Shown: one piece after another, positions 18,844 to 63,795 of the stretch
Numbering within the stretch: position 1 is the stretch's first letter
Layout: each line of letters opens with the position of its first letter
NCBI GenBank assembly: GCA_003963115.1
Contig: RXJQ01000012.1
Coordinates: 1 to 64,000, forward strand
From: Burkholderiales bacterium
Lineage (GTDB): Bacteria; Pseudomonadota; Gammaproteobacteria; Burkholderiales; Burkholderiaceae_C
Reading direction: 5' to 3'
Length of the DNA: 64,000 nucleotides
Program-made: the position numbers and the translations under genes
Notes under the pieces: generated by a model
Database searches by the model: none
The model's input: the letters and a program-made list of their open reading frames with translations, nothing else
What the model was told of the DNA's origin: nothing

Positions 18844-20697
18844 GTGCTGAGCCGGTTTGAACGCCTGATCGACCCCTACCCCGATACGCCGCCCACGGTG
18901 CCCCCCAAGGGCATCCTGGCCTTCATCTGGGCCAATACACTGGGGCAGCGCCGCTTCATCCTGGGCATGACCACGCTCACAGCGGCCATCGGTGCCTTCG
19001 AGGCCTTGCTGTTCAACATGCTGGGCAGCATCGTCGACTGGCTGAGCAAGGTCCCACCCGCAGAGCTGTGGACGCAGTCGCACCACAAGCTCCTGCTGCT
19101 CGGTGCCATCCTGCTGGCCAGCCCCCTGGCCGTGCTGCTGCAGACCATGCTCAAGCACCAGGCGCTGGCGGGCAACTTCCCGATGAAGATGCGCTGGAAC
19201 TTCCACCGCCTGATGCTGAGCCAGAGCATGGGCTTTTATCAGGACGAGTTCGCCGGGCGCGTCGCCACCAAGGTCATGCAGACGGCCATTGCCGTGCGCG
19301 ACACCTGCTTCATCGTGGCCGACATCCTGGTCTTCGTGGCCATCTACTTCGCCACCATGACGGCCGTGGTCGGCAGCTTTGATGCCTGGTTGATCACGCC
19401 CTTCATCGGCTGGCTGCTGCTCTACAGCATCTCGATCAGCTACTTCGTGCCACGCCTGAGCCGCAAGGCCAAGGAACAGGCTGATGCACGCTCGACCATG
19501 ACCGGTCGCATCACCGATGCCTACACCAACATCGCTACGGTCAAGCTGTTCTCGCACACCAACCGCGAGGCCGGCTATGCACAGTCAGCGATGAAAGACT
19601 TCATGAAGACGGTGTATGGTCAGTTCCGCCTGGTCAGCGGCTTCGAGGTGATCAACCACACGCTGAGCATGCTGCTGATCCTGTCGACCTCGGGCCTGGC
19701 CTTGTGGCTGTGGAGCCAAGGCCAGGTGGGCATCGGCGCGGTGGCGGCGTCCACGGCCATGGCGCTGCGCCTCAACGGCATCTCGCACTGGATGATGTGG
19801 GAGATGGCCATGCTGTTCGAACACGTGGGCACCATCCAAGATGGCATCAACACCCTGACACGCCCGCACAAGGTGGTCGATGACCCGCAGGCCCGGCCGC
19901 TGAAAGTGCAGCACGGCGACATCCGCCTGCAGAACGTGCACTTCGCCTATGGAGGCGAGCGCGCCGTCATCGACCAGTTGAACATCCACATCAAGCCTGG
20001 CGAAAAGATCGGCCTCGTGGGGCGCTCGGGCGCGGGCAAGTCCACCATCGTCAACCTGCTGCTGCGCTTCTACGATCTGGAGAGCGGCCAGATCCTCATC
20101 GACGGGCAGGACATCAGCCGCGTCACCCAAGACAGCCTGCGCGCACAGATCGGCATGGTCACCCAAGACACCTCACTGCTGCACCGCTCGGTGCGCGACA
20201 ACATCCTGTACGGGCGGCCCGATGCCTCTGATGAGGACATGGTCCGCGCCGCCACCAAGGCCGAGGCGCACGAGTTCATCAAAGGCCTGAGCGACCCCAA
20301 GGGCCGCACCGGCTACGACGCCCATGTCGGCGAGCGTGGCGTGAAGCTCTCGGGCGGCCAACGCCAGCGCATCGCCATCGCCCGCGTGATGCTGAAAGAC
20401 GCCCCCATCCTGCTGCTCGATGAGGCCACCAGCGCACTCGACTCCGAAGTCGAAGCAGCGATCCAGGCCAGCCTCTACCGATTGATGGAAGGCAAGACCG
20501 TGGTGGCCATCGCACACCGGCTGTCGACCATCGCGGCCATGGACCGGCTCATCGTGCTCGACCATGGCCGCATCGTGGAAGAAGGTGACCACGCCTCATT
20601 GCTGACCAAGGGTGGCCTGTACGCACGCCTGTGGGCCCACCAGAGCGGCGGCTTCCTCGGTGAAGAAGCCGACGACGACGATCAGGCCGTGGCCTGA
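18844..20697 (+). CDS. ABC exporter, fused permease-ATPase
   Basis: This half-transporter (617 residues) would work as a homodimer in the inner membrane. About residues 35-330 hold six predicted membrane helices. The ATPase domain has Walker A (GRSGAGKST) near 392, Q-loop MVTQDTSLL, signature LSGGQRQRIAIAR near 500 and Walker B (ILLLDEATSALD) near 520. The N-terminus (PPKGILAFIWANTLGQRR) matches the uncharacterised exporter group similar to MsbA or MdlB rather than a specific lipid or drug pump. It begins with GTG. A MarR gene precedes it. Confidence 0.9.
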   Translation: MLSRFERLIDPYPDTPPTVPPKGILAFIWANTLGQRRFILGMTTLTAAIGAFEALLFNMLGSIVDWLSKVPPAELWTQSHHKLLLLGAILLASPLAVLLQTMLKHQALAGNFPMKMRWNFHRLMLSQSMGFYQDEFAGRVATKVMQTAIAVRDTCFIVADILVFVAIYFATMTAVVGSFDAWLITPFIGWLLLYSISISYFVPRLSRKAKEQADARSTMTGRITDAYTNIATVKLFSHTNREAGYAQSAMKDFMKTVYGQFRLVSGFEVINHTLSMLLILSTSGLALWLWSQGQVGIGAVAASTAMALRLNGISHWMMWEMAMLFEHVGTIQDGINTLTRPHKVVDDPQARPLKVQHGDIRLQNVHFAYGGERAVIDQLNIHIKPGEKIGLVGRSGAGKSTIVNLLLRFYDLESGQILIDGQDISRVTQDSLRAQIGMVTQDTSLLHRSVRDNILYGRPDASDEDMVRAATKAEAHEFIKGLSDPKGRTGYDAHVGERGVKLSGGQRQRIAIARVMLKDAPILLLDEATSALDSEVEAAIQASLYRLMEGKTVVAIAHRLSTIAAMDRLIVLDHGRIVEEGDHASLLTKGGLYARLWAHQSGGFLGEEADDDDQAVA

Positions 20698-21725
20698 CGC
20701 GAAGGCAGCGTGACGCCCTCGGCCTGAGCCAGCGTCACCAGCGCCTCTTCCATCAAGGCCCTGGCATGCCCGGCCACACGGTAAAGATAAGCATGCAGGG
20801 CCACGTCGGCCGGCTCGCGGCTTTCGCAATCGGCGCTGTAGGACTCGAACTGCCCCAGCAAGGTCACCAGGTGCGCCAGATGCTGCGGGCATTCACACGC
20901 GATGCGCGGCATGGCCATGATCAGGTCCGCCAACGATGCCGCATTGAAGCGCGGTACGGGCGCCGGGTCCGGTACAGCGCGCAAGCCGCGCGCCACGCTG
21001 CGCCATCCGCGCACCGCGTCCATCATGGCCTGCGTCAAAATGGCGGCAGGCACCGGAGAGCGATGCAGGATGGCCCCACGCGCATGCAGCGCCCCCGTCA
21101 CCTGGCTGTTGGCAAAACCATAGACCACGATGATCTGGCGGGCGCCGACTGCGCGCTGCAAACGCACCAGCCAGTCCACGGTCTCCATGTGCAAGGCCGG
21201 CAGGTCGGCCAGCACGATGTCGGCGTGCACGCCGCGCAAGGACAACTCGGACGCAGGCTGACCATCCACCACCTTGATGATCTCGACGCCCTCCACTTCC
21301 TGAAGCGGGTTCGACCAACGCACATCGGCATCCTTGCCCACCAGCAGCACGGGGATCCGTGCCTCGATCGCGGAAGCATCGCCGGTATGGGCTCGGGGTG
21401 CAAGCGCGTCCTTGCCACCTTTGAGCATGCTGTCGGTCTGGTCGGCCTCGTTCACCAGGTCCTGCAGGCTGGCCGTGTCCATGCGTGCCAGCATGCCGAT
21501 GCCATGTCCCCGATTGACCAGTTGTTTGATCAGCACCAGCCGGCGCACATCCTGGCTGGAATACAGACGCTGCCCCGAAGGCGATTGCGAGGGCCCCACG
21601 ACCTGATAACGTCGCTCCCACACACGCAAGGTCGCCACGGGGATGTTCACCATGCGTGCGGCCGCGCTGCTGCGGTAACGAGGGGTGATCGCATCTTCGG
21701 CATAAGATCTGGGCTCTTCGGACAT
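20682..21725 (-). CDS. MerR-family regulator with receiver-like C-terminal domain
   Basis: This has 347 residues from the ATG at 21725, which is preceded by GAGGTG. An N-terminal MerR winged helix spans about residues 12-85 (ARMVNIPVATLRVWERRYQVVGPSQS, then RLYSSQDVRRLVLIKQLVNRGHGIGML). The centre (ADIVLADLPALHMETVDWLVRLQRAVGARQIIVVYGFANSQVTGALHARGA) has the alternating strand-helix pattern of a receiver or Rossmann-like domain. It shows no cobalamin-binding His motif of the CarH/LitR kind. The C-terminus (CPQHLAHLVTLLGQFESYSADC) is helical. It is divergent from the HiPIP gene. It overlaps the end of the ABC exporter by 16 bases. Confidence 0.85.
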   Translation of the reverse strand: MSEEPRSYAEDAITPRYRSSAAARMVNIPVATLRVWERRYQVVGPSQSPSGQRLYSSQDVRRLVLIKQLVNRGHGIGMLARMDTASLQDLVNEADQTDSMLKGGKDALAPRAHTGDASAIEARIPVLLVGKDADVRWSNPLQEVEGVEIIKVVDGQPASELSLRGVHADIVLADLPALHMETVDWLVRLQRAVGARQIIVVYGFANSQVTGALHARGAILHRSPVPAAILTQAMMDAVRGWRSVARGLRAVPDPAPVPRFNAASLADLIMAMPRIACECPQHLAHLVTLLGQFESYSADCESREPADVALHAYLYRVAGHARALMEEALVTLAQAEGVTLPSRQATA

Positions 21726-21863
21726 ACTGCACCTCGGATCTTGATTGAACTCAAATTGAAACCGTTTTGTGCATTGTGCTGACCTGACCAAGCCACGGGT
21801 AGGTCGAAAATGAGTCAAAGTGGATTCAAACTCACCCCCAACCCCACTCACTGGAGAAAACAC

Positions 21864-22175
21864 ATGACCAGCCGTCGCCAATTCATGATGACCATCGTGC
21901 CCGCGTGCGCCGCCTTGTCGGCCCTGGGCGCCGCCCACGCCGCCGACGCCCCGAAGGTGGACGAGAAAGACCCGGCCGCCGTGGGCCTGGGCTACAAGGC
22001 CGACGCCACCAAGGTGGACGCCAAGAACTACCCCACCTACAAGGCGGGCAATGTGTGCGGCGGTTGCCAGTTCTTCCAGGGCAAGGCGGGTGACGCCTGG
22101 GGCCCCTGCCCGCTACTGGGCGGCAAGCAGGTCAGCGCCAAGGGCTGGTGCTCGGCCTGGGCCAAGAAGGCTTGA
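21864..22175 (+). CDS. high-potential iron-sulfur protein (HiPIP)
   Basis: This is a periplasmic [4Fe-4S] electron carrier (103 residues). Four cysteines bind the cluster in the HiPIP spacing CGGCQFF...GPCPLL...GWCSAW. The N-terminus (MTSRRQFMM) is a Tat signal ending at AHA, as expected for a protein exported with its cofactor. GGAG lies 8 bases before the ATG. HiPIPs deliver electrons to reaction centres or terminal oxidases; no photosynthesis genes are in the window. It diverges from the MerR gene. Confidence 0.93.
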   Translation: MTSRRQFMMTIVPACAALSALGAAHAADAPKVDEKDPAAVGLGYKADATKVDAKNYPTYKAGNVCGGCQFFQGKAGDAWGPCPLLGGKQVSAKGWCSAWAKKA

Positions 22176-52986: not shown

Positions 52987-53337
52987 ATGGAAGAACAAGC
53001 CGTTGTCAAGTCTCTGGCCGCATTGGCTCAGCCCGTGCGCCTGCGTGTGTTCCGCGCCTTGGTGGTGGCCGGCCCAGAGGGGCTCACGCCCGGCTCGCTC
53101 ACCGAGCAACTCGGCGTAGCGGCCACGACCTTGTCTTTTCATTTGAAGGAACTGGCGTACGCAGGCCTCATCTCTCAGGAGCGCGATGGGCGGCACCTGA
53201 TCTACCGCGCCGCCTTCGATCACATGAGCACCCTGCTGGGCTACCTCACGGAGCACTGCTGCCAAGGTCAGCCCTGCAGCGTCACCGAGCCACGCCCCAA
53301 AGGCAAGCGCGCTTCACGCACTTGCGCCACCTGCTGA
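52987..53337 (+). CDS. arsR: ArsR-family arsenic repressor
   Basis: This is a winged-helix repressor (116 residues). The recognition helix region is LTEQLGVAATTLSFHLKELAYAGLISQERDGRHLIYRA, and the start is SLAALAQPVRLRVFRALV. Cysteines cluster at the C-terminus (EHCCQGQPCS and TCATC), suggesting an As(III) site made by C-terminal Cys as in the type-2 ArsR group. It probably controls arsR-arsI-arsC-aqpS from the palindromic operator just upstream. It lies 12 bases before arsI. Confidence 0.93.
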   Translation: MEEQAVVKSLAALAQPVRLRVFRALVVAGPEGLTPGSLTEQLGVAATTLSFHLKELAYAGLISQERDGRHLIYRAAFDHMSTLLGYLTEHCCQGQPCSVTEPRPKGKRASRTCATC

Positions 53338-53349
53338 CAGGAGAACACC

Positions 53350-53910
53350 ATGAAGCGCTTTCACGTTCACATCCATGTCGAGGATCTCGCCCGCAACATC
53401 GACTTCTACGCCAAGATGTTCGGTGCCCCACCCACGCGGGTTGAGTCCGACTACGCCAAGTGGATGCTGGATGAGCCGGCCGTGAACTTCGCAATCTCGA
53501 CGCGCGGCCATGGCCACCTGGGTGTGGATCACCTTGGCATCCAGGTTGACAACGACGCCGACCTGGCCGTGATGAAAGCACAGGCCCAACAGGCGGACTT
53601 GGCGCTCATCGATGAAGGCGCCACCACGTGCTGCTATGCCCGCAGCGACAAGCACTGGGTCGTCGATCCGCAAGGCCTGCCCTGGGAGCACTTCCGCACG
53701 TTGGGCACCATTCCCACCTTCCGCGAATCTCCGGATCTCACGCAAGAAGATGGGCTACCTGCGCCAAGCGACGCCAGTCCATGCTGCACGCCACAAGCAC
53801 CGGCTCAGGTGGCGCCATCCACATCCACCGACAGTGCTTGCTGCACCCCGATCCCCCGTGCCAAGGGTGCCCCCATCCCAATCAAACAAGCCGGTTCCGG
53901 CTGCTGCTGA
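53350..53910 (+). CDS. arsI: ArsI-like C-As lyase / CadI-family metalloenzyme with Cys-rich tail
   Basis: This VOC-fold protein has 186 residues. ArsI is an Fe(II) dioxygenase that breaks the C-As bond of trivalent organoarsenicals. Expected ligands are present: His5, His61 (VDHLGIQV), Glu113 (PWEHF) and the vicinal Cys pair 94-95 (TTCCYA). About residues 135-186 form a Pro/Ser-rich tail with three more CC pairs, ending GSGCC, perhaps a metal-trapping extension. It follows arsR by 12 bases and precedes arsC by 13. Some annotations call this family CadI. Confidence 0.88.
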   Translation: MKRFHVHIHVEDLARNIDFYAKMFGAPPTRVESDYAKWMLDEPAVNFAISTRGHGHLGVDHLGIQVDNDADLAVMKAQAQQADLALIDEGATTCCYARSDKHWVVDPQGLPWEHFRTLGTIPTFRESPDLTQEDGLPAPSDASPCCTPQAPAQVAPSTSTDSACCTPIPRAKGAPIPIKQAGSGCC

Positions 53911-53923
53911 TCCATCGACCATC

Positions 53924-54427
53924 ATGACCGTCCACGTTCTGATCCTGTGCACCCACAACTCGGCACGCAGCGTGCTCTCGGAGGGCATGCTCAAGCACCT
54001 GGCCCGCAAGGCGGGGAGAGACGTTCAGGCGCACAGCGCCGGCAGCGCGCCCAGCGGGCGCATCAACCCTTTTGCCATCGAGGCCCTGCGCAACGCCGGC
54101 ATCGACACCTCGGCCTATCGCAGCAAGAGTTGGGACGAGTTCACCACGCCTGACGCACCGCCCCTGTCCATCGTCATCACGGTATGCGACAGCGCCGCGG
54201 CCGAAGCCTGTCCGGTCTTCTTTGGCGGCACGGGGCAACCCGTCAAGGTGCACTGGGGCTACCCCGATCCGTCGAACGCCGAAGGTGGCGACGAGGGCAA
54301 GCGCCGGGCCTTCGAACTGACGCGCCAGGCCATCGGCTACAAGATGCTGCAACTGCTGGCGCTGCCGCTGGAGAGCATGCCCCGCGACGCCTTGCAACAA
54401 GCCTTGCTTGCGATTGCCAAGAGTTGA
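53924..54427 (+). CDS. arsC: arsenate reductase, LMW-phosphatase type
   Basis: This reduces As(V) to As(III) (167 residues). The catalytic loop CTHNSARS (CX5RS with the nucleophilic Cys at residue 9) and DSAAAEACPVFFGG match the low-molecular-weight phosphatase ArsC of the thioredoxin-coupled group. Product arsenite would leave through the next gene's channel. It lies 13 bases after arsI. Confidence 0.93.
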   Translation: MTVHVLILCTHNSARSVLSEGMLKHLARKAGRDVQAHSAGSAPSGRINPFAIEALRNAGIDTSAYRSKSWDEFTTPDAPPLSIVITVCDSAAAEACPVFFGGTGQPVKVHWGYPDPSNAEGGDEGKRRAFELTRQAIGYKMLQLLALPLESMPRDALQQALLAIAKS

Positions 54428-54432
54428 GCGCC

Positions 54433-55125
54433 ATGAGCAGCGTCAGACACAAACTGCTGGGCGAGCTCATCGGCACCGCCCTGCTGCTGGCCGTGGTCAT
54501 CGGCTCCGGCATCATGGCCGAGAAGCTCTCTGGCGGCAATGTGGCCGTGGCCTTGTTGGCCAATACCCTGGCGACGGTAGGCGGCCTCTACATCCTCATC
54601 GAGGTGTTTGGCCCCGTCAGTGGCGCCCACTTCAATCCGGCTGTCTCCAGCGTGATGGCCTGGCGTGGGAATCTGCCTCGCGCACTCTGGCTGCCTTATG
54701 TGGCTGCGCAACTGCTGGGCGCCCTGCTCGGCGCCTGGCTGGCTCACAGCATGTTCGACCTGAGCATCCTGCAATGGTCCGGCAAGGTCCGCAGCGGCGC
54801 AGGCCAGTGGATCGCCGAAGCCGTGGCCACGGCGGGGCTCTTGCTGGTGATCCTGCGTGCACCGCCTACACGGGTCGCGCCCATGGTGGCGGCCTATATC
54901 GGTGCGGCCTACTGGTTCACAGCCTCGACCTCCTTTGCCAACCCCGCCGCCGCGTTTGGACGCATGTTCTCCGACACCTTTGCAGGCATTGCGCCGGCCA
55001 GCGTGCCCGGCTTCGTCCTCGCTGAACTCGCTGGCGCCGCCATGGGCGTGATGCTGCATGGCTTGCTGGGTGCCCCCTTGCGCGCCCCCCTTCCTGAATC
55101 CCCCTATCCAGACGGTCCCCCGTAG
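54433..55125 (+). CDS. aqpS: aquaglyceroporin-type arsenite channel (AqpS-like)
   Basis: This is a six-helix MIP-family channel (230 residues). The two channel signatures are NPAVSS near residue 63 and NPAAAF near 175. No ArsB or Acr3 pump is in the operon, as in Sinorhizobium meliloti where the channel AqpS serves for arsenite release. It starts 5 bases after arsC, so it is cotranscribed. It could carry glycerol or water, but the position argues for arsenic. Confidence 0.9.
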   Translation: MSSVRHKLLGELIGTALLLAVVIGSGIMAEKLSGGNVAVALLANTLATVGGLYILIEVFGPVSGAHFNPAVSSVMAWRGNLPRALWLPYVAAQLLGALLGAWLAHSMFDLSILQWSGKVRSGAGQWIAEAVATAGLLLVILRAPPTRVAPMVAAYIGAAYWFTASTSFANPAAAFGRMFSDTFAGIAPASVPGFVLAELAGAAMGVMLHGLLGAPLRAPLPESPYPDGPP

Positions 55126-55216: not shown

Positions 55217-56137
55217 ATGTTTTCTTCACGTCTGTCCCGGCTCGCCTGGGGCTGGGGCCTGCTCACGGCCTTGCTGGGCACACCCGCTGCATCGCAAGCC
55301 GCCACCGTCACATCCAACACCGCGCAAACGCGCTACCCCATCGTCCTGGTCCATGGCTTCATGGGCTTTGACGACATCCTGGGCGTCGACTACTTCTACC
55401 AAGTCCCCGAGGACCTGCGCCGCAATGGCGCCACCGTCTACGTCGCAGCCGTCTCGCAGGTCAACAGCAGCGAGGCACGCGGCGAGCAGTTGCTCAAGCA
55501 GATGCAGCAGTGGGCCGCGCGCGATGGCGTCAAAAAGTTCAACCTGATTGGCCACAGCCAGGGCGGCCCCACGGCGCGCTATGTGGGCGGCGTGGCCCCG
55601 CAGATGGTGGCCAGCATCACCACGGTGGCCAGCCCCTCACGCATGTCCGTGCAGGACGCGGACAACAACATCGCCAAGCTGATCAACAACTACAGCAGCC
55701 TCACCTCGGCCTTCGGCTCCTTCGTGGCCTGGCTATCGGGCAACAGCAAGCTGCCGCAGGACGTCAACGCCGCCAAGAACTTCGCCGATGAGGTCAATGC
55801 CTTCGCCACGCGCTTCCCGGCTGGCGTGCCCTCCACCTACTGCGGGCTCGACGGCAAGGAGTTCGAAGGCGGCATGTACCTCTACTCCGTCACCGGCAAC
55901 AAGCCCAAGACCAATGCCTGGGACATCTCGGACCAGGCCATGGTCGAGTCCAGTGTCCCCAGCGATGGCGCCATCCCCGTGTGCGCAGCCCACTTCGGCA
56001 AGGTGCTGCGCGACGACTATCCCTGGAACCACATCGACGAGATGAACCATGTCTTTGGCCTGATCGGCAAGGGTGCGCCCGACCCCGTGGCCTTCTACCG
56101 AACCCAAGCCAACCGCCTCAAACTCAAAGGACTGTGA
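55217..56137 (+). CDS. secreted family I triacylglycerol lipase (first of tandem pair)
   Basis: This has 306 residues with a signal peptide ending about ASQAA. The oxyanion region is VLVHGFMGFDDILGVDYFYQVPEDL, the lipase box IGHSQGG with Ser114, and the triad completes with Asp in SDGAIPVC and His in WNHIDEMNH. Two cysteines (TYCGLDG and PVCAAHF) could form the family I.1/I.2 disulfide. Those families usually need a foldase (Lif), which is absent nearby. It is 65 per cent or so similar by eye to the next gene, which begins 2 bases after its stop. Confidence 0.9.
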   Translation: MFSSRLSRLAWGWGLLTALLGTPAASQAATVTSNTAQTRYPIVLVHGFMGFDDILGVDYFYQVPEDLRRNGATVYVAAVSQVNSSEARGEQLLKQMQQWAARDGVKKFNLIGHSQGGPTARYVGGVAPQMVASITTVASPSRMSVQDADNNIAKLINNYSSLTSAFGSFVAWLSGNSKLPQDVNAAKNFADEVNAFATRFPAGVPSTYCGLDGKEFEGGMYLYSVTGNKPKTNAWDISDQAMVESSVPSDGAIPVCAAHFGKVLRDDYPWNHIDEMNHVFGLIGKGAPDPVAFYRTQANRLKLKGL

Positions 56138-56139
56138 TC

Positions 56140-57051
56140 ATGTACAAGCGCCTCCTCACCTTGGCTGTCCTCGTCGGCAGCGCCCTGATCAATACCGCCT
56201 GCTATGCCGCAGCCAGCACAACCGCAGCAACGAAGTACCCCATTGTGCTCGTGCACGGCATGGCCGGCTTTGATTCAATCATGGGCATCGACTACTTCTA
56301 CCAGGTGCCCGCCGAGCTGCGCAAGAACGGCGCCACCGTGTACGTGGCCTCCATGTCGTCCTTCAATGACAACGATGTGCGTGGCGAACAGCTGCTCAAG
56401 CAGATGAAGGCCTGGGCCGCGGCCAAGGGCTACACCAAGTTCAACATCATCGCGCACAGCCAGGGCGGCCCCACGGCCCGCTATGTGCAAGGCGTGGCCC
56501 CTGACATGGTCGCCAGCATCACCTCGGTCGGCTCGCCGCACGACCTCACGGCCATGCAGGGCAGCAATGCCCTGGGCGACCTGCTGACCAACTACAGCAA
56601 GGTGGTGGCCGCATTTGGCAGCGTGATCGGCTGGGCCTCGGGCAGCTCCAACCTGCCGCAAGACCCGGTTGCGCTGCAAGCCTGGGCAGCCAACACGGCA
56701 GCCTTCAATGCGCGCTTCCCGGCCGGCAAGCCCACCACGTACTGCGGCGAAGGTGCCGAGAAGGTCGGCAACACCTACTTCTATTCGGTCACCGGCAACC
56801 AGCCCGCCACCAACAGCTGGGACATCTCGGATGCCATCTTGAAGCAGGCTGCTGCCTCGACACCGGGCGTGGCCACCGACGGCCTGGTGCCTGTGTGCGC
56901 CGCGCACTGGGGCAAGGTGCTGCGTGACGACTACCCCTGGAACCACCTCGACGAGATCAACCACGTGCTGGGCCTGATCGGCAAAGGCGCACCCGACCCC
57001 GTGGCCTTTTACGTGCAGCAGGCCAGCCGCCTCAAGCTCAAAGGGCTGTGA
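56140..57051 (+). CDS. secreted family I triacylglycerol lipase (second of tandem pair)
   Basis: This has 303 residues and shares the layout of the preceding lipase: signal peptide, VLVHGMAGFDSIMGIDYFYQVPAEL, then the box IAHSQGG with Ser107. Ala replaces the first Gly of GxSxG, the clearest difference from its twin. The triad finishes with Asp in TDGLVPVC and His in WNHLDEINH. The start lies 2 bases after the first lipase's stop, so both are translated from one message. The pair looks like a tandem duplication with divergence, possibly splitting substrates. Confidence 0.9.
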   Translation: MYKRLLTLAVLVGSALINTACYAAASTTAATKYPIVLVHGMAGFDSIMGIDYFYQVPAELRKNGATVYVASMSSFNDNDVRGEQLLKQMKAWAAAKGYTKFNIIAHSQGGPTARYVQGVAPDMVASITSVGSPHDLTAMQGSNALGDLLTNYSKVVAAFGSVIGWASGSSNLPQDPVALQAWAANTAAFNARFPAGKPTTYCGEGAEKVGNTYFYSVTGNQPATNSWDISDAILKQAAASTPGVATDGLVPVCAAHWGKVLRDDYPWNHLDEINHVLGLIGKGAPDPVAFYVQQASRLKLKGL

Positions 57052-57073
57052 CGCCAAAACGACCCAGGTTTGC

Positions 57074-57098
57074 CCAGGCCCGGAATCAGGGGGCCTGG
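57074..57098. repeat. hairpin between lipase 2 and PETase-like gene
   Basis: CCAGGCCC and GGGCCTGG form a perfect 8-bp inverted repeat around a 9-base loop. No T-run follows, so it is not a classical terminator; it may be a pause site or partial terminator. Confidence 0.45.
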
Positions 57099-57156
57099 CT
57101 CGATGATCGGTGGAAACACCCGTTCTGACTTGAGGACGTCTCCCTAGAGTCAGCGC

Positions 57157-58038
57157 ATGAGACTTCTTCCCCGATTCCTCACGGGCTTGAGCCTGAGCCT
57201 GGCCGCGCTGTTGCTGCCCCACGGTGCCGCACTGGCGGCGGGCTATGAGCGTGGCCCGGCCCCCACCGCCGCATCGCTGGAGGCCGCCGGCCCCTTCACC
57301 GTGGACAGCTTCCAGATCGGCCGCGCCGTTGCCAAGGCATATGGTTACGGCGGCGCCACCGTGTACTTTCCCAAGGCCAGCGGCCAGACCTTCGGCATCG
57401 TCTCGCTGACACCGGGCTTCCTGGGCTTCCAGGCGGTCTATGCGCCCTTGGCCGAGCGCGTCGCCTCGCATGGCTTCGTGGTGATCAACCTCGACACCAA
57501 CACCGTCTTCGACCAGCCCGATCTGCGTGCCCGCGAAATGGCCGGCGCCATCAAGCAGGTCATCGACTTGGTCAAGACCAGCAAGACACCGTTTGCCGCA
57601 AGCGTCGACACCACGCGCCGCGCCGTCATGGGTCACTCGATGGGCGGCGGTGGCACGCTGGCCGCAGCCGTGGCGGACGGCACCTTCAAGGCCGCCGTGC
57701 CCATCGCCCCCTGGCACACCACGCGCAGCTTCACCGCAGACACCGTGCCGACACTGATCGTGGCGTGCGAGAAAGACCTGATCGCGCCCAACAATCTGGG
57801 CTCCGATGTGTACTACGCCAGCCTGAGCCCCACGCTGCCACGCGGCGAGATCGAGGTCAAAGGCGCGGACCACCTGTGCCCCCTGTCACTGGCCAAAGCC
57901 GCCTACCGCGACACGGTCGCCAAGTCGGCCATTGCCTGGCTCAAGCGCTTCCTCGACGAGGACATGCGCTATGACGCCCTGGTCAAGGGCGGCATCAACG
58001 ACGGCGACTACAGCCGCTTCGACGTCAAGGGCTTTTGA
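57157..58038 (+). CDS. secreted PETase-like polyester hydrolase / cutinase
   Basis: This secreted alpha/beta hydrolase has 293 residues, near the 290 of Ideonella PETase. The mature part starts YERGPAPTAASLEAAGPFTV, aligned with the PETase/cutinase start. The box GHSMGGGG holds Ser161; Asp207 is in CEKDLIAP and His239 in ADHLCP. Cys204 and Cys241 fit the extra active-site disulfide of PETase-type II enzymes, while the second, C-terminal disulfide is missing. Trp186 (PWHTT) is kept, but His160 replaces PETase Trp159, as in actinobacterial cutinases, and Leu240 sits at the Ser238 position. It probably hydrolyses polyesters; PET activity is untested. Confidence 0.88.
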   Translation: MRLLPRFLTGLSLSLAALLLPHGAALAAGYERGPAPTAASLEAAGPFTVDSFQIGRAVAKAYGYGGATVYFPKASGQTFGIVSLTPGFLGFQAVYAPLAERVASHGFVVINLDTNTVFDQPDLRAREMAGAIKQVIDLVKTSKTPFAASVDTTRRAVMGHSMGGGGTLAAAVADGTFKAAVPIAPWHTTRSFTADTVPTLIVACEKDLIAPNNLGSDVYYASLSPTLPRGEIEVKGADHLCPLSLAKAAYRDTVAKSAIAWLKRFLDEDMRYDALVKGGINDGDYSRFDVKGF

Positions 58039-59055: not shown

Positions 59056-59604
59056 ATGTCCCGCATCCCTCTCCTCACCATCGAACAAGCCCCCGCCGAC
59101 AGCCAGCCCGTGCTGCGTCAGGTCCACCAGGCCTTTGGCGGCGCCACGCCGAACATGTTCAAGGCCGTGTCCAACTCGCCGGCCGCGCTGGGCAGCATGT
59201 GGGCCGCCTTTGGCGCCTTGGGCCAAGGCCGCATCGGCGCGCAACTGGGCGAGCAGATCGCGGTGGCCGTGGCCGACCGCAATGCCTGCGAATACTGCCT
59301 GGCCGCGCACACCGCGCTGGGCCGCAAGGCAGGCTTGTCGTCTGACGTCCTGCGCGCCGCCCAACAAGGTGAAGCGAGCGACCCGCGCACGGCCGCCGCC
59401 TTGCACTTCGCGCTCAAGCTGGTGAACGACCGCGGCCAGGTCAGCGACGCCGACGTGCAGGCCCTGCGCGCCGTGGGCTTTGACGATGGCCACATCGTCG
59501 AGATCCTGGCGCACGTGGCGCTCAACCTGTTCACCAACTATGTGAACGTGGCCTTCGAGGTGCCGGTGGACTTCCCGGCCGTGCCGCTGTCGCACCGGGC
59601 TTGA
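59056..59604 (+). CDS. AhpD/carboxymuconolactone decarboxylase-family protein
   Basis: This has 182 residues. The CxxC redox motif in NACEYCLAAHTALGRKAGL (near residue 75) marks the alkylhydroperoxidase AhpD-like branch rather than true gamma-carboxymuconolactone decarboxylase. The start is SRIPLLTIEQAPADSQPVLRQVHQAFGGATPNMFK. AraC-linked members often detoxify peroxides or quinones. It ends 7 bases before the displaced glnS remnant. Confidence 0.88.
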   Translation: MSRIPLLTIEQAPADSQPVLRQVHQAFGGATPNMFKAVSNSPAALGSMWAAFGALGQGRIGAQLGEQIAVAVADRNACEYCLAAHTALGRKAGLSSDVLRAAQQGEASDPRTAAALHFALKLVNDRGQVSDADVQALRAVGFDDGHIVEILAHVALNLFTNYVNVAFEVPVDFPAVPLSHRA

Positions 59605-59610
59605 TCGCGC

Positions 59611-59730
59611 TTACTTCGCCCATTTTCCGTCTTTCAGCCCGGTGATCTTGTTGAAAACAGGGTTGCCGGGTTGGTAGTCACAGCAATCGGCTACGAAGTA
59701 GCCAAAGCGCTCGAACCGGAACCTTTGATT
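59611..59730 (-). pseudogene. glnS: displaced 3' end of an ordinary glnS
   Basis: Forty codons read NQRFRFERFGYFVADCCDYQ... to KWAK and a stop, the normal end of GlnRS. They align with residues 564-599 of the fusion (27 of 36 identical). An in-frame TGA sits immediately upstream, so it is not translated. This is the original gene end left behind when the passenger came in. Confidence 0.9.
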
Positions 59731-61999
59731 TCATACGAGTCAAGAAATTCAGAGCCTCTGAAACAATTGACATCGACAACAAGGCATGAATCTCCAGGAA
59801 TGCGATGTAGACGGAAGGGGGTACCAAGCAACGAGTAAATACACCACCTGTTAACACACTTCGCGCTTCAAACACACTCAAAAGAGGCTTTTGTGTCGCC
59901 CAACAAAATCCCCCAAGAAATTACTAAGCGCCTCATTTAACTTTGGCAGCTTTAACTGACCCCATACAAGCCCACATTGGTTTGCTTTCGTGCCAGAAAC
60001 AACGTACAAGGGCCCTCGCTCGTCCAACAAGCCTTTTTCTATCATAAACGCCAACAGCGCCCTGCGCAATTCATCGTCCCCTACGACAACATTATCAATT
60101 AGCTGCTTATGACGAGCCAAGTCGTCCTTTTTATCCTTTCTGAACCATCTAAGAATACGCATCAACTCCACTAAGGCCATTTGAACAGCCTTACCGCCCA
60201 AAGTGCTATTCCCTTCAATCAGCCCAGACACCAAGTATTTCGACCATGGGTAGGATAGATCAGCGTCACCTTGGACAACGAAAGCATCTAAGCCACGACC
60301 ACTGAGCGTGAAGGCATGGTCAAAAATTACAATGCCCCCCTTCACCGAAATCGACACACCGCGCACGCTTGATTCCCGAACAAACATTGCAGAGGATTGC
60401 ACCCGAAGAGAATTGCAGCGAATATCAGAATTAGATATATCACACGGTCGACCTGCAACTCCAATCGACACATCCCCATCGGAAGTCACGCTTATGTTTC
60501 TGATGGGCTGATTCAATATAACTCCACGCCCGCCCGCAACAAGTCCAAATCTACTTATCTCAACGCGATCACCAAGACTTCCCACTAGAACCAAAACACC
60601 TTCGCCCCGTTTAATTCGAATCGCAGCAGCACTTTCCCATCCAAACAACCTGGCAGAGGAGAACGAATCAATCACATGACCAACATGCTCCGCATTAACG
60701 GCGCGATCCTTCAAGAACTTGTAGAGTAATGGTGTAGGAACAATACCCCGACGCCGTAAGTCTGCATCAGCAAAATCGGCGAAAAGCGCCCCCTGCAAAG
60801 CCCACGCATACAGATAATCCCTAAAAGCAGGACCTGCATATGAGTTGCCCCTTGCAAATGGATGCATATCGAAGAACTCTCCAAGAGCATCACTGTAGGC
60901 TTGCCCAACCGTAGGAGGCATCTTCTTTACGGCTTCAGGGACATCAAACGCACCAGAGTCAAAGAACTTCGCGCAGAGTCTAGCAAGTTGCTCTGACGGG
61001 GCGTACATAGCATCCCAGTCAATATTAGGAACCGCGGAGATACCAGGCCTTTCCTTCACCCTACGAACAAACTTTCCCTGTTCACGGACAAGCAGTTCGC
61101 TAAATACGCGGTCCAGAAAATCGATATCCTTCCCCTTTGCAGCCCATGCTGGCCCCTCGAGAGCTTCCACCAATCTAACAGGATTAGTCTCGTCACGAAT
61201 CAGCGCAATAACGGACTGTAAAACAGGAGCATAGCCCATGAACGATCTGAAAGCCGCATCAGACCAACGACTCTCAAAGGAAAGCCCCAGAATCGATGCA
61301 AACGCTCGCTCAATCCCTGCAAAAATTTGCCCACGGACCGAAGGGGTTGCCACACCTTCTTTGGATTTCTCAACGAACTCCCTAGATTTAGAGGCATCAA
61401 AAAATGATATCTCGTAGTATGGCACCTTTGCACGCAAGGAGTTGGATGAGGCCAAGTAACTTGCCAAGAAATCTGCGGACTCTGTCCGCGCAAGCAAGAC
61501 AACACAAGGACGAGTTACGTTCTTGACGCGATCAACGACCTCATCCAAGAAACCCTCGATCCGCTCCAACCCCTCACGAATCTCCGCCTCATCAAATGCA
61601 TCAATAACAATTGTTGCATCGCCAGAGCCAACGCTCCTCACTACGGCACTAAATGCCTCATCGCCGAAAGCATTCGTGAACGCCCCAGAAAATGTATAGT
61701 CCCCGATTCGCTGATTTGCAAGATTCCAATATATTGCACGTCGCGCTTGAGAAATATACCTACCGAGGGCCGTTTTACCGACAGCACCTGGAGCACTCAC
61801 GATTACAATCGGACTTACTTCAGAACCTGAGTCTTTGACCCTCAGTTTCGGCTCCACATAAAAATCTGACTCCGCAACTACCTCAATTGCGGGATTTCTA
61901 TTATCCCGAAGAGGGGGCAATTTACTTACTGGCAGCTTACCGATGAGTTTGGACAAATCAAGCTCATCAGTTGCTAAAGAGCTCGGTTTAACCGTACTC
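59731..61999 (-). mobile_element. passenger segment inserted at the 3' end of glnS
   Basis: About 2.27 kb lies between the displaced glnS terminus and the functional one, and is visibly AT-richer than either side. It codes only for the NTPase half of the fusion protein. It carries no integrase or transposase, and I see no terminal inverted repeats. The near-direct repeat is the 100-bp glnS end itself (about 62000-62106 versus 59627-59730, roughly three quarters identical). Entry by recombination in the glnS ends, or loss of an integrase, would both fit. Confidence 0.75.
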
Positions 62000-63795
62000 C
62001 ACCCATCCTTCAGACCAGTGATCATATTAAACACGGGCTTGCCGGGTGCGTGGTCCTTACAGTCTGCCACGAAGTAGCCAAAACGCTCGAACTGGAATTT
62101 CTGATCAGGCAGCGCCGCCGCCAGCGAGGGCTCGATGTAAGCTGTGACCACCTTCTTGCTCTCGGGGTTCAAGCTGGCGAGGAAGTCCTTGCCACCGGCA
62201 TCGGGCTGCGGGTCGGTGAAGAGGCGATCGTAAAGGCGCACTTCGGCGGCCACGCCGTCAGCCACGCCCACCCAGGTGATCGCCGCCTTGACCTTGACGC
62301 TGTCGGCGCCCGGCGTGCCGCTCTTGGTGTCGGGCACCACGGTGGCCAGGACCTCGGTCACGCGGCCATCGGCATCCTTGACGCAGCCCGTGCACTCGAT
62401 CACATAGCCGCCCTTGAGGCGCACCTTGTTGCCGGGGAAGAGGCGCTTGTAGCCCTTGGGCGGCACCTCTTCGAAGTCCTCGCGCTCGATCCACACCTCC
62501 TTGCCCAACTCGAAGTGGCGCACGGGTGATGCTTGTCCCTCGGGCGGATGAGGCAAAGCCGGCAGCGAACAAGGCTCCAGATGACCGGCGCCCATGACCT
62601 CCTCCCAGTTGGTGAGGGTGAGCTTGACCGGATCGAGCACCACCATGCCGCGATGCGCCTTGTTCTCCAGGTCGTCGCGTAGGGCGATGTCCAGTGTGCT
62701 GTAGTCGATCCAGCTGTCGGCCTTGCTCACACCGATGCGCTCGGCAAACAGCTGGATGGCCTCAGGCGTGTAGCCGCGTCGGCGCAAGCCCACGATGGTC
62801 GGCATGCGCGGGTCATCCCAGCCCTCGACCACCTTGGTGTCCACCAGCTGCTTGAGCTTGCGTTTGGACGTGATCACATACGTGAGGTTCAGGCGCGCGA
62901 ACTCGTACTGCCGCGGGTTCGGTTGCTTGAGCAGGCCGCCTTCGGCCAGGCGCGCCAGCAGCCAGTCGTAAAAGGGGCGCTGGTCTTCGAATTCGAGCGT
63001 GCAGATCGAATGGGTGATTTGCTCCAGCGCGTCTTCGATGGGGTGCGCGAAGGTGTACATCGGGTAGATGCACCACTTGTCACCCGTGTTGTGGTGGGTC
63101 GCGCGCTTGATGCGGTAGATGGCCGGGTCCCGCATGTTGATGTTGGGGCTGGCCATGTCGATCTTGGCGCGCAGCACCATGGCGCCATCGGCATGCTGGC
63201 CGTCGCGCATCTCGCGAAAGCGCGCGAGGTTCTCCTGCGGCGTACGGCTGCGGAAGGGGCTGTCCACACCAGGCTTGGAGAAGTCGCCACGGTTGGCGCG
63301 CATCTCTTCGGGCGTCTGCTCGTCCACGTAGGCCAGGCCGGCTTCGATCAGGTACTCGGCGGCGCGGTACATGAAATCGAAGTAGTTGCTGGCGTAGTAG
63401 AGGTGGCTCTCGGCCTTACCGTTGAAGGACGAGTCCCAGCCGAAGCCCAGCCACTTGACGGCGTCCAGAATGGAATCGACGTACTCCTGCTCTTCCTTCT
63501 CGGGGTTGGTGTCGTCAAAGCGCATGTGGCAGACGCCACCGTAGTCGCGCGCCAGGCCGAAGTTCAAGCAGATGCTCTTGGCGTGGCCCACGTGCAGGTA
63601 GCCATTGGGCTCCGGCGGAAAGCGGGTGCGGATCTTGGCAGGGTCAGGTTGGCCCTGCTCGTGGTGAGCGGCATCGCCGGGCGAGCCGGCCCAACGGCGG
63701 CTGGCATACGTGCCTTGTTCCAGGTCGCGGTCGATGATGCCGCGCAGGAAATTGCTGGGTTTGGATGGGGTGTTGTCGTCTGTAGGCGCGTTCAT
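59878..63795 (-). CDS. glnS: glutaminyl-tRNA synthetase fused to a STAND-like NTPase module
   Basis: This has 1305 residues. Residues 1-599 form a complete GlnRS: class I HIGH-equivalent PEPNGYLHVGHAKS (61-74), KMSKS-like VITSKRKL and both anticodon barrels through ITGLKDGW. It charges tRNA-Gln. Instead of stopping, the frame continues 706 residues. Walker A is APGAVGKT (668-675), Walker B ATIVIDAFDEAE (Asp732, Asp735, Glu736), and LLARTES is sensor-like. Helices follow to about 1050, a beta-rich region 1058-1180 and a wHTH-like end 1230-1290. The first Met after 591 is 853, so the NTPase is almost certainly made as a fusion. The passenger's role is unknown. Confidence 0.92.
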   Translation of the reverse strand: MNAPTDDNTPSKPSNFLRGIIDRDLEQGTYASRRWAGSPGDAAHHEQGQPDPAKIRTRFPPEPNGYLHVGHAKSICLNFGLARDYGGVCHMRFDDTNPEKEEQEYVDSILDAVKWLGFGWDSSFNGKAESHLYYASNYFDFMYRAAEYLIEAGLAYVDEQTPEEMRANRGDFSKPGVDSPFRSRTPQENLARFREMRDGQHADGAMVLRAKIDMASPNINMRDPAIYRIKRATHHNTGDKWCIYPMYTFAHPIEDALEQITHSICTLEFEDQRPFYDWLLARLAEGGLLKQPNPRQYEFARLNLTYVITSKRKLKQLVDTKVVEGWDDPRMPTIVGLRRRGYTPEAIQLFAERIGVSKADSWIDYSTLDIALRDDLENKAHRGMVVLDPVKLTLTNWEEVMGAGHLEPCSLPALPHPPEGQASPVRHFELGKEVWIEREDFEEVPPKGYKRLFPGNKVRLKGGYVIECTGCVKDADGRVTEVLATVVPDTKSGTPGADSVKVKAAITWVGVADGVAAEVRLYDRLFTDPQPDAGGKDFLASLNPESKKVVTAYIEPSLAAALPDQKFQFERFGYFVADCKDHAPGKPVFNMITGLKDGWSTVKPSSLATDELDLSKLIGKLPVSKLPPLRDNRNPAIEVVAESDFYVEPKLRVKDSGSEVSPIVIVSAPGAVGKTALGRYISQARRAIYWNLANQRIGDYTFSGAFTNAFGDEAFSAVVRSVGSGDATIVIDAFDEAEIREGLERIEGFLDEVVDRVKNVTRPCVVLLARTESADFLASYLASSNSLRAKVPYYEISFFDASKSREFVEKSKEGVATPSVRGQIFAGIERAFASILGLSFESRWSDAAFRSFMGYAPVLQSVIALIRDETNPVRLVEALEGPAWAAKGKDIDFLDRVFSELLVREQGKFVRRVKERPGISAVPNIDWDAMYAPSEQLARLCAKFFDSGAFDVPEAVKKMPPTVGQAYSDALGEFFDMHPFARGNSYAGPAFRDYLYAWALQGALFADFADADLRRRGIVPTPLLYKFLKDRAVNAEHVGHVIDSFSSARLFGWESAAAIRIKRGEGVLVLVGSLGDRVEISRFGLVAGGRGVILNQPIRNISVTSDGDVSIGVAGRPCDISNSDIRCNSLRVQSSAMFVRESSVRGVSISVKGGIVIFDHAFTLSGRGLDAFVVQGDADLSYPWSKYLVSGLIEGNSTLGGKAVQMALVELMRILRWFRKDKKDDLARHKQLIDNVVVGDDELRRALLAFMIEKGLLDERGPLYVVSGTKANQCGLVWGQLKLPKLNEALSNFLGDFVGRHKSLF

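Follow-up and report, generated by a model that had tools for sequence, protein, structure and literature searches.

A glutaminyl-tRNA synthetase gene continued by a STAND-like ATPase module, and arrays of partial glnS tails with toxin and defence-type cargo in related genomes

Integron gene cassettes form arrays of small cassettes, often encoding toxin–antitoxin (TA) pairs, that lie in one orientation at one site and are shared between species. Staphylococcal cassette chromosome (SCC) elements insert at rlmH via an integrase, and genomic islands insert at tRNA genes. Here, we analysed the first 64,000 nucleotides of contig RXJQ01000012.1 from a Burkholderiales bacterium (assembly GCA_003963115.1; hereafter the window), in which glnS, the gene of the glutaminyl-tRNA synthetase (GlnRS), runs in a single frame into a P-loop ATPase module and is followed by an older, displaced glnS 3' end, or fossil tail. 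The fused gene encodes the sole GlnRS found in its genome, and related genomes carry recurrent partial glnS tails with TA and defence-type cargo, including cassettes common to several genomes. This pattern suggests that genes of toxin and defence type have repeatedly landed at the end of glnS and accumulated there, with partial tails between them.

Like integron cassettes, the glnS arrays are small, often composed of toxin–antitoxin genes, in one orientation, at a single site and common to species, but their repeated element is a partial copy of the coding end of an essential gene. As for SCC elements at rlmH and islands at tRNA genes, the insert restores the 3' end of its target and leaves the displaced end behind; by contrast, the tails vary in length and the closed inserts span about 0.4–1.6 kb (2.3 kb in the window). 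Homology-facilitated illegitimate recombination, described in the available part of its source as an integration of small linear DNA (PMC3240628), would combine homology at one end, here glnS, with a free joint, and would produce variable fossil starts and a chimeric GlnRS; the glnS case differs from the process as described there in being a recurrent array. In addition, a paper on two enterobacterial genera, Photorhabdus and Xenorhabdus, names glnS among the protein genes at which their genome-plasticity regions integrate; its available part makes no mention of tail duplication (PMC3091717). Integration at glnS is therefore already known, and there is a real chance that the glnS-tail array is a kind of its own. 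Regarding the protein, GlnRS with a C-terminal YqeY or tRNA-binding domain likewise carry C-terminal additions, but these are not ATPases, and the module differs from Avs and bNACHT, the bacterial defence ATPases of STAND/NACHT type, by its size (about 700 residues), its lack of an annotated effector, its fusion to GlnRS and its position below Pfam cut-offs. A first reading of the window (the original prediction) knew of no described system of such design, and we found no description of a GlnRS–STAND fusion or of glnS-tail arrays in the literature searched, a search that left most subscription journals and bioRxiv outside.

The fused glnS gene and the second glnS end

A single minus-strand frame of 1305 codons, from ATG to stop (59878–63795), encodes GlnRS (residues 1–600) followed by a 705-residue P-loop ATPase. 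Several elements of the original prediction were borne out, including the coordinates and size of a glnS frame continuing past its usual stop into a long C-terminal module, the intact Walker A and Walker B motifs, and the drop in base composition at the junction, where GC content at third codon positions (GC3) falls from 0.78–0.91 across GlnRS to 0.36–0.52 and overall GC shifts as well. Pfam recognised tRNA-synt_1c (54–365) and two anticodon-binding domains (380–485 and 506–578), and beyond residue 578 only a sub-threshold AAA_16 match. With HVGHAKS (68) and SKRKL (310), which we take to be the class I motifs of GlnRS, the predicted protein has the catalytic and anticodon-binding domains and the motifs expected of a working enzyme. 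The two other GlnRS matches of the host genome correspond to a GltX-type gene and to a 39-codon stretch at 59626–59742.

That stretch belongs to the fossil tail, which the original prediction had not remarked. A direct repeat of 103 nt (76% identity) joins 62003–62105, at the end of the GlnRS part, to 59627–59729 behind the module, where the downstream copy continues to its own stop. Sliding identity against 12 relatives indicated that the window glnS is native-like up to about codon 580 and less similar over its last 20 codons, and glnS ends at an ordinary stop in all 20 same-genus genomes fetched, with the ending KITGLKDGNWAK or similar. Since glnS ends normally in relatives and a second 3' end lies behind the module, the module lies inside an insertion, with the new end in front and the older one behind.

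A second fusion was recovered from Polaromonas sp. K-2018 MAG002 (NZ_JAQSDL010000085.1; L003), the sole one among 60 loci from a species-genome collection. It encodes GlnRS and module in one frame of 1291 amino acids, is 47% identical to the window fusion over its whole length and about 30% in the module, and represents the only GlnRS found in its genome. The closest protein of a large collection, the metagenomic P0002, begins with VFNRVTGLKDNW, a GlnRS tail. The frame and a linker of 14–17 residues are kept in the three fusion sequences (P0002 being seen only in part), and their modules form one side of a branch (SH-aLRT 99) in a 108-row tree whose long branches call for caution. The Polaromonas GlnRS is itself chimeric: its identity to eight genomes of its genus is 85–95% across the first 100 residues compared and falls to 39–44% at the end, while the eight average 78–94% to one another. 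Its GC3 drops from about codon 300 onwards, and the foreign stretch starts around codon 320. On the basis of this chimerism and GC3 drop, it seems that a long stretch of foreign glnS came in along with the module. Among the outcomes that the original prediction had named as refuting it, a sequencing indel as the cause of the read-through was rejected, since the same architecture in the Polaromonas contig argues against an artefact, and so was plain vertical inheritance of the fusion within the genus, the module being missing from the 41 other genus genomes searched.

Partial glnS tails and their cargo in related genomes

A profile of the glnS tail (99 residues) matched 74 of 87 Polaromonas-group genomes, 13 of which carried additional tails downstream of glnS, on one contig with it; all 13 loci were read. 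At the family level, 379 of 399 genomes had a match and 23 had two or more. Twelve of these 23 were read (G353 being, by identical coordinates, G844 of the Polaromonas set), and 10 had an array at glnS, window genome included; at least four of the other 11 carry a second glnS. Besides the Polaromonas-group set and the window, arrays thus occur in eight family genomes; in the Polaromonas-group cases and in these eight, one to four partial tails follow glnS. An order-wide draw of 311 genomes provided 279 with a tail match, nine of them family members, and outside the family two genomes, G565 and G687, had two tail matches each. As a control, the tail of gltX gave exactly one match in 77 genomes and two in none of these 77, its query being a single sequence at about 42–54% identity and less sensitive than the glnS profile; the difference (13/87 vs 0/77; Fisher test, 5e-5) is indicative only, the genomes being related. 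For the tail of metZ, second matches, among those listed, were located at other loci, mostly within long frames, and none was adjacent.

At least two tails were observed in 20 of the 22 surveyed loci, and in G109 too. The 25 closed inserts measured between tails spanned 420–1630 bp, and the BLAST alignments of 25 fossil tails started anywhere from residue 1 to residue 72 of the profile, most of these tails reaching, or nearly reaching, the glnS stop. Of 47 tail copies, 37 had a sense open reading frame (ORF) of at least 70 codons starting between −14 and +60 of the stop (between −14 and +4 for 15 of them), compared with 32% of 4065 random stops from both strands of the same loci for the −14 to +60 interval; these starts were read without a gene caller, and TTG or GTG starts may be misplaced. 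The position of the cargo on the glnS strand, often touching the stop, suggests a use of glnS transcription or translation, which also fits the proposal of the original prediction that tethering to glnS provides the module with its expression.

Cargo was named from Pfam where scanned and from sequence reading elsewhere, the scanned genes being hand-picked from ORF lists rather than drawn at random. Nine inserted genes comprised Gp49 (HigB-type), HTH_37, RelE, DUF4258 and zeta toxin matches, two nucleotidyltransferases (DUF6036, with AbiEii below cut-off), a helix-turn-helix gene with MqsA below cut-off, and one gene without match. Ten distal genes included a ThsA-like SIR2, ParA-type, KAP and OLD/AriA-like genes, two GmrSD types, a PLD-type gene (match below cut-off), two ORC-CDC6-like AAA genes and one without Pfam match. 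For instance, the order in G858 is glnS, HigBA, tail, nucleotidyltransferase, tail, RelE-type pair, tail, MNT-type gene, tail, and in G823 glnS, HigBA, tail, ParDE-type pair, tail, then ParA-type and SIR2-like genes. None of this cargo is fused to GlnRS in the array loci examined. A tenth scanned gene, an HSDR_N fragment, follows glnS in G245, at a place in which we saw no second tail.

Cassettes are common to several genomes. The same insert with the same left edge recurs in different genomes, one of them in second position in G823 and in first position in G847 and G881, and 12 of 18 cassette pairs with a common left boundary were more alike than the glnS tails of the genomes concerned. A family of 77 residues (METTDYFRNDV-like) is the first cargo, 3–4 bases past the glnS stop, in L142, L147 and L151, and similar DNA occurs in L155 and L131; the one member scanned had no Pfam match. 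In another locus (L146:2196–4298), a P-loop protein of 700 residues lies directly behind a fossil glnS tail, without Pfam match, with a weak PADLOC match to PDC-M36A and unlike the window module by BLAST.

Three glnS tails were also located in Rhodoferax antarcticus NZ_CP019241.1 (about 19939–21949; L159:9963–11973), separated by a RelE/HTH (HigBA-type) pair and a DUF2283 gene; IS1634 transposases lie nearby, and the 22.3 kb read contain no glnS body. The record, labelled as a linear plasmid of 31.9 kb and typed as non-mobilizable, contains pabB and cytochrome genes; it may be a chromosomal fragment, and its tails are possibly a detached array. Searching potential vehicles with the tail, we obtained matches in 12 phage and 143 plasmid-collection records, of which the annotated ones, among the matches listed, were glnS genes. 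CP079746.1 has two tail-matching places, the one read being an ordinary glnS, and one viral contig matches the tail.

The ATPase module, its relatives and the window surroundings

In agreement with the original prediction, fold comparison identifies the module as a predicted STAND (NACHT-fold) ATPase from an unnamed family. Its modelled fold includes the nucleotide-binding domain (NBD), the helical part and the winged-helix part that characterise STAND ATPases of NACHT type. With curated NACHT/STAND profiles, the window module itself gave AAA_16 alone, again below cut-off, and 34 family members (E up to 0.1) matched NACHT in 13 cases, NPHP3_N in 15 and nSTAND3 in 3. An HP motif, invariant in alignment A2 of the family, is replaced in the Polaromonas fusion (EHVF). 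No family with a housekeeping role in Pfam or NCBIfam fits the module, so that this further refuting outcome named by the original prediction did not occur either, and no effector domain is annotated on it, a place that GlnRS or HipA may occupy.

The module is rare. A search of 100 genomes returned the window genome and a short weak match containing a stop, and the family profile, in 399 order-level genomes, the window genome and one free-standing frame of 722 residues. In the Polaromonas group, the G842 match passes the junction, but reading of the locus showed no module. The search for further GlnRS fusions, proposed by the original prediction, was answered by the Polaromonas fusion and the P0002 tail, and found none among 120 of 151 GlnRS-type proteins, whose other additions were YqeY, tRNA_bind and one GltX-like domain. 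Phage records contained no relative of the module; two relatives are in viral contigs and three distant ones on plasmids. The widest-shared neighbour family of the free-standing ATPases, considered as a possible conserved partner, occurs in just 6 of 56 loci. Among 103 neighbouring proteins, scanned without a control set, the top PADLOC models (AriA, HEC-02A, NsnB, PtuA and others) matched 4, and AAA_21, the commonest Pfam family, had 4 matches amid mixed metabolic genes; in view of this lack of a control set, a defence-island setting is not claimed for the whole family.

Other GlnRS architectures were encountered. P0179 (1051 residues) combines PF19269, presumably GltX-type, and GlnRS domains in one chain, and six Polaromonas-group GlnRS (G834:C34, G835:C16, G836:C50, G851:C20, G874:C24 and G875:C49) gave two-piece matches (about 1–280 and 283–592) within one open frame of 712–725 residues, with an internal insertion of roughly 90–100 residues.

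The features of the locus are listed in Table 1. The downstream neighbour also lies 69–1301 bp behind glnS in 4 of the 20 fetched genus genomes. Further away, ORF reading of 52987–55125 revealed an ArsR-type regulator and small dioxygenase-like, phosphatase/arsenate-reductase-like and aquaporin-like genes, resembling an arsenic-resistance cluster, and, in 55217–58038, a tandem pair of lipase-like proteins as well as a secreted hydrolase that contains a GHSMGGG motif and resembles polyester (PET) hydrolases.

Table 1. Features of the fused glnS locus (window positions)
Feature	Position	Strand	Remark
glnS, GlnRS part of the fusion (residues 1–600)	61996..63795	-	native-like to about residue 580
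STAND ATPase module (predicted), in-frame (residues 601–1305, including stop)	59878..61995	-	
In-frame TTG (residue 614), possible internal start	61954..61956	-	near aligned start of some free-standing homologues
NBD, helical and winged-helix part (predicted)	60670..61923	-	module residues 25–442, matches NLRP3 NACHT region
Walker A, APGAVGKT (residues 668–675)	61771..61794	-	mostly invariant in alignment A2
Walker B, VIDAFDEAE (residues 730–738)	61582..61608	-	
GYAPVL motif (residues 854–859)	61219..61236	-	invariant across 34 rows of alignment A2
Beta-rich region of the module	60268..60636	-	secondary structure
C-terminal, mainly helical region	59896..60201	-	secondary structure; winged-helix-like according to the original prediction
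AT-richer spacer, module stop to fossil tail	59743..59877	.	composition
Displaced glnS 3' end (fossil tail) with stop	59611..59742	-	69% identical to residues 560–598
Downstream neighbour	59056..59604	+	carboxymuconolactone-decarboxylase-like by sequence reading

Origin of the fusion and role of the glnS 3' end

We consider it probable that the fusion represents one insertion at a recurrent cassette site formed by the glnS 3' end. Incoming DNA would bring a cargo gene preceded by a glnS 3' end, and recombination within the glnS tail would provide GlnRS with a new C-terminus, displacing the old end downstream as a fossil tail. In the other inserts read, the new tail keeps its stop, with the cargo beginning on or just past it in the same orientation, from where it could use glnS transcription or translation. 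In the window and in Polaromonas K-2018 (and in P0002, judging from its first residues), the stop is absent and the STAND ATPase would be read as an extension of GlnRS, such an in-frame fusion being the possible end of a series that begins with unfused cargo near the stop. Insertion may proceed by tail homology without an encoded recombinase, through a RecA-type crossover or homology-facilitated illegitimate recombination, with homologous exchange on one side and a free joint on the other, or through circles formed between tails.

Several observations weigh against this explanation. The tails are weak in two of the 13 Polaromonas-group cases (G835 and G843), two of the 12 family genomes read (G245 and G438) have their second tail away from glnS, and for 6 of the 18 cassette pairs it is the glnS tails that are more alike. 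Over its last 30 codons, the GC3 of glnS genes with arrays displayed no clear signal, in a comparison whose control arm failed. The Polaromonas fusion has no fossil tail, GlnRS is visible in P0002 only as its first dozen residues, and the left half of the window fossil tail poorly resembles both the fused copy and the relatives, being either decayed native or incoming sequence. Furthermore, the fusion protein matched no PADLOC family at E up to 1.

A first alternative, somewhat unlikely in our view, is internal initiation, in which the locus would produce GlnRS and a separate STAND protein, and the shared open frame would mean little. The original prediction had deduced from the absence of Met between residues 591 and 853 that the module requires glnS translation; the in-frame Met gap was confirmed, and the dependence is not established given four candidate non-ATG starts in frame (TTG 614, TTG 626, GTG 647 and GTG 666). 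The first of these is close to where some free-standing homologues, P0008 among them, begin in the alignment, and the Polaromonas fusion has AGGGGA 7 nt before GTG 597. However, no clear ribosome site precedes TTG 614 in the window, and with no stop between the two parts in either genome, a read-through product would be expected.

Site-specific islands, whose integrase would recognise the glnS 3' end and whose recombinase would have been lost or act in trans, are rather unlikely. Such islands would account for tails reaching the glnS stop or nearly so and for an insert that replaces the gene end, and glnS is a listed plasticity site in the available part of the Photorhabdus and Xenorhabdus survey (PMC3091717). 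Conversely, the fossil starts are scattered over most of the profile without a fixed short repeat, the closed inserts are only 420–1630 bp long (selected cargo ORFs were scanned), and the foreign stretch of the Polaromonas gene begins around codon 320. The variable fossil starts and the chimeric Polaromonas GlnRS are better fitted by the homology model than by a fixed-core integrase.

The fusion could also be purposeful, GlnRS standing in the effector place, so that oligomerisation would cluster and block the sole GlnRS, or tRNA-Gln charging would be sensed, and translation would halt upon infection. This is unlikely, although no other GlnRS was found in either genome, the frame and linker persist in three sequences (one of them seen in part) whose modules share about 30% identity, and the same STAND family includes proteins with a HipA-like domain (PF07804 in P0057, P0072, P0080 and P0082, of 1057–1069 residues), located on the N-terminal side in P0057. 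HipA of Escherichia coli reportedly phosphorylates GltX, a tRNA synthetase. By contrast, unrelated and unfused cargos occupy the same site and most homologues found are unfused. The original suggestion of a coupling to tRNA-Gln charging, taken as a design specific to GlnRS sensing or charging, is not supported in that form: relatives have unfused TA and defence-type cargo at this site, so GlnRS may be only a carrier.

Finally, a one-off accident or a decaying gene without function is highly improbable, despite the window glnS being, among the matches listed in the 399 family genomes, the only one to run through the module and despite the 41 module-free genomes of its genus, as 705 open codons with family-invariant motifs and a relative with the same architecture argue against it.

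Returning to insertion at the cassette site, the module would act as inferred from its class, namely as a sensor that rests with ADP bound and, upon a signal of invasion, binds ATP, oligomerises and stops growth. A role of GlnRS as the constitutive carrier of the module has a slightly better than even chance, and its role as a target, clustered and switched off, appears improbable. The carrier is preferred because the other cargo at the site is unfused; this preference is opposed by the HipA fusions known from the STAND family and by a linkage that diverged members have retained. More broadly, and only tentatively, the glnS 3' end of Comamonadaceae could be an integrase-free cassette system, in which TA and defence genes would travel with a tail, integrate by recombination within it, gain the expression of an essential gene that cannot be silenced and stack, and in one lineage of which GlnRS would have become the anchor or switch of a STAND immune sensor.

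If true, immune genes would be gathered behind, or even onto, an always-on gene whose own end is the recombination site, and the order of their acquisition would be readable from the fossil tails. Partial copies of essential-gene ends would then offer a way of searching for unknown defence genes, and whether a tRNA synthetase serves as the anchor or the target of a STAND sensor would become testable.

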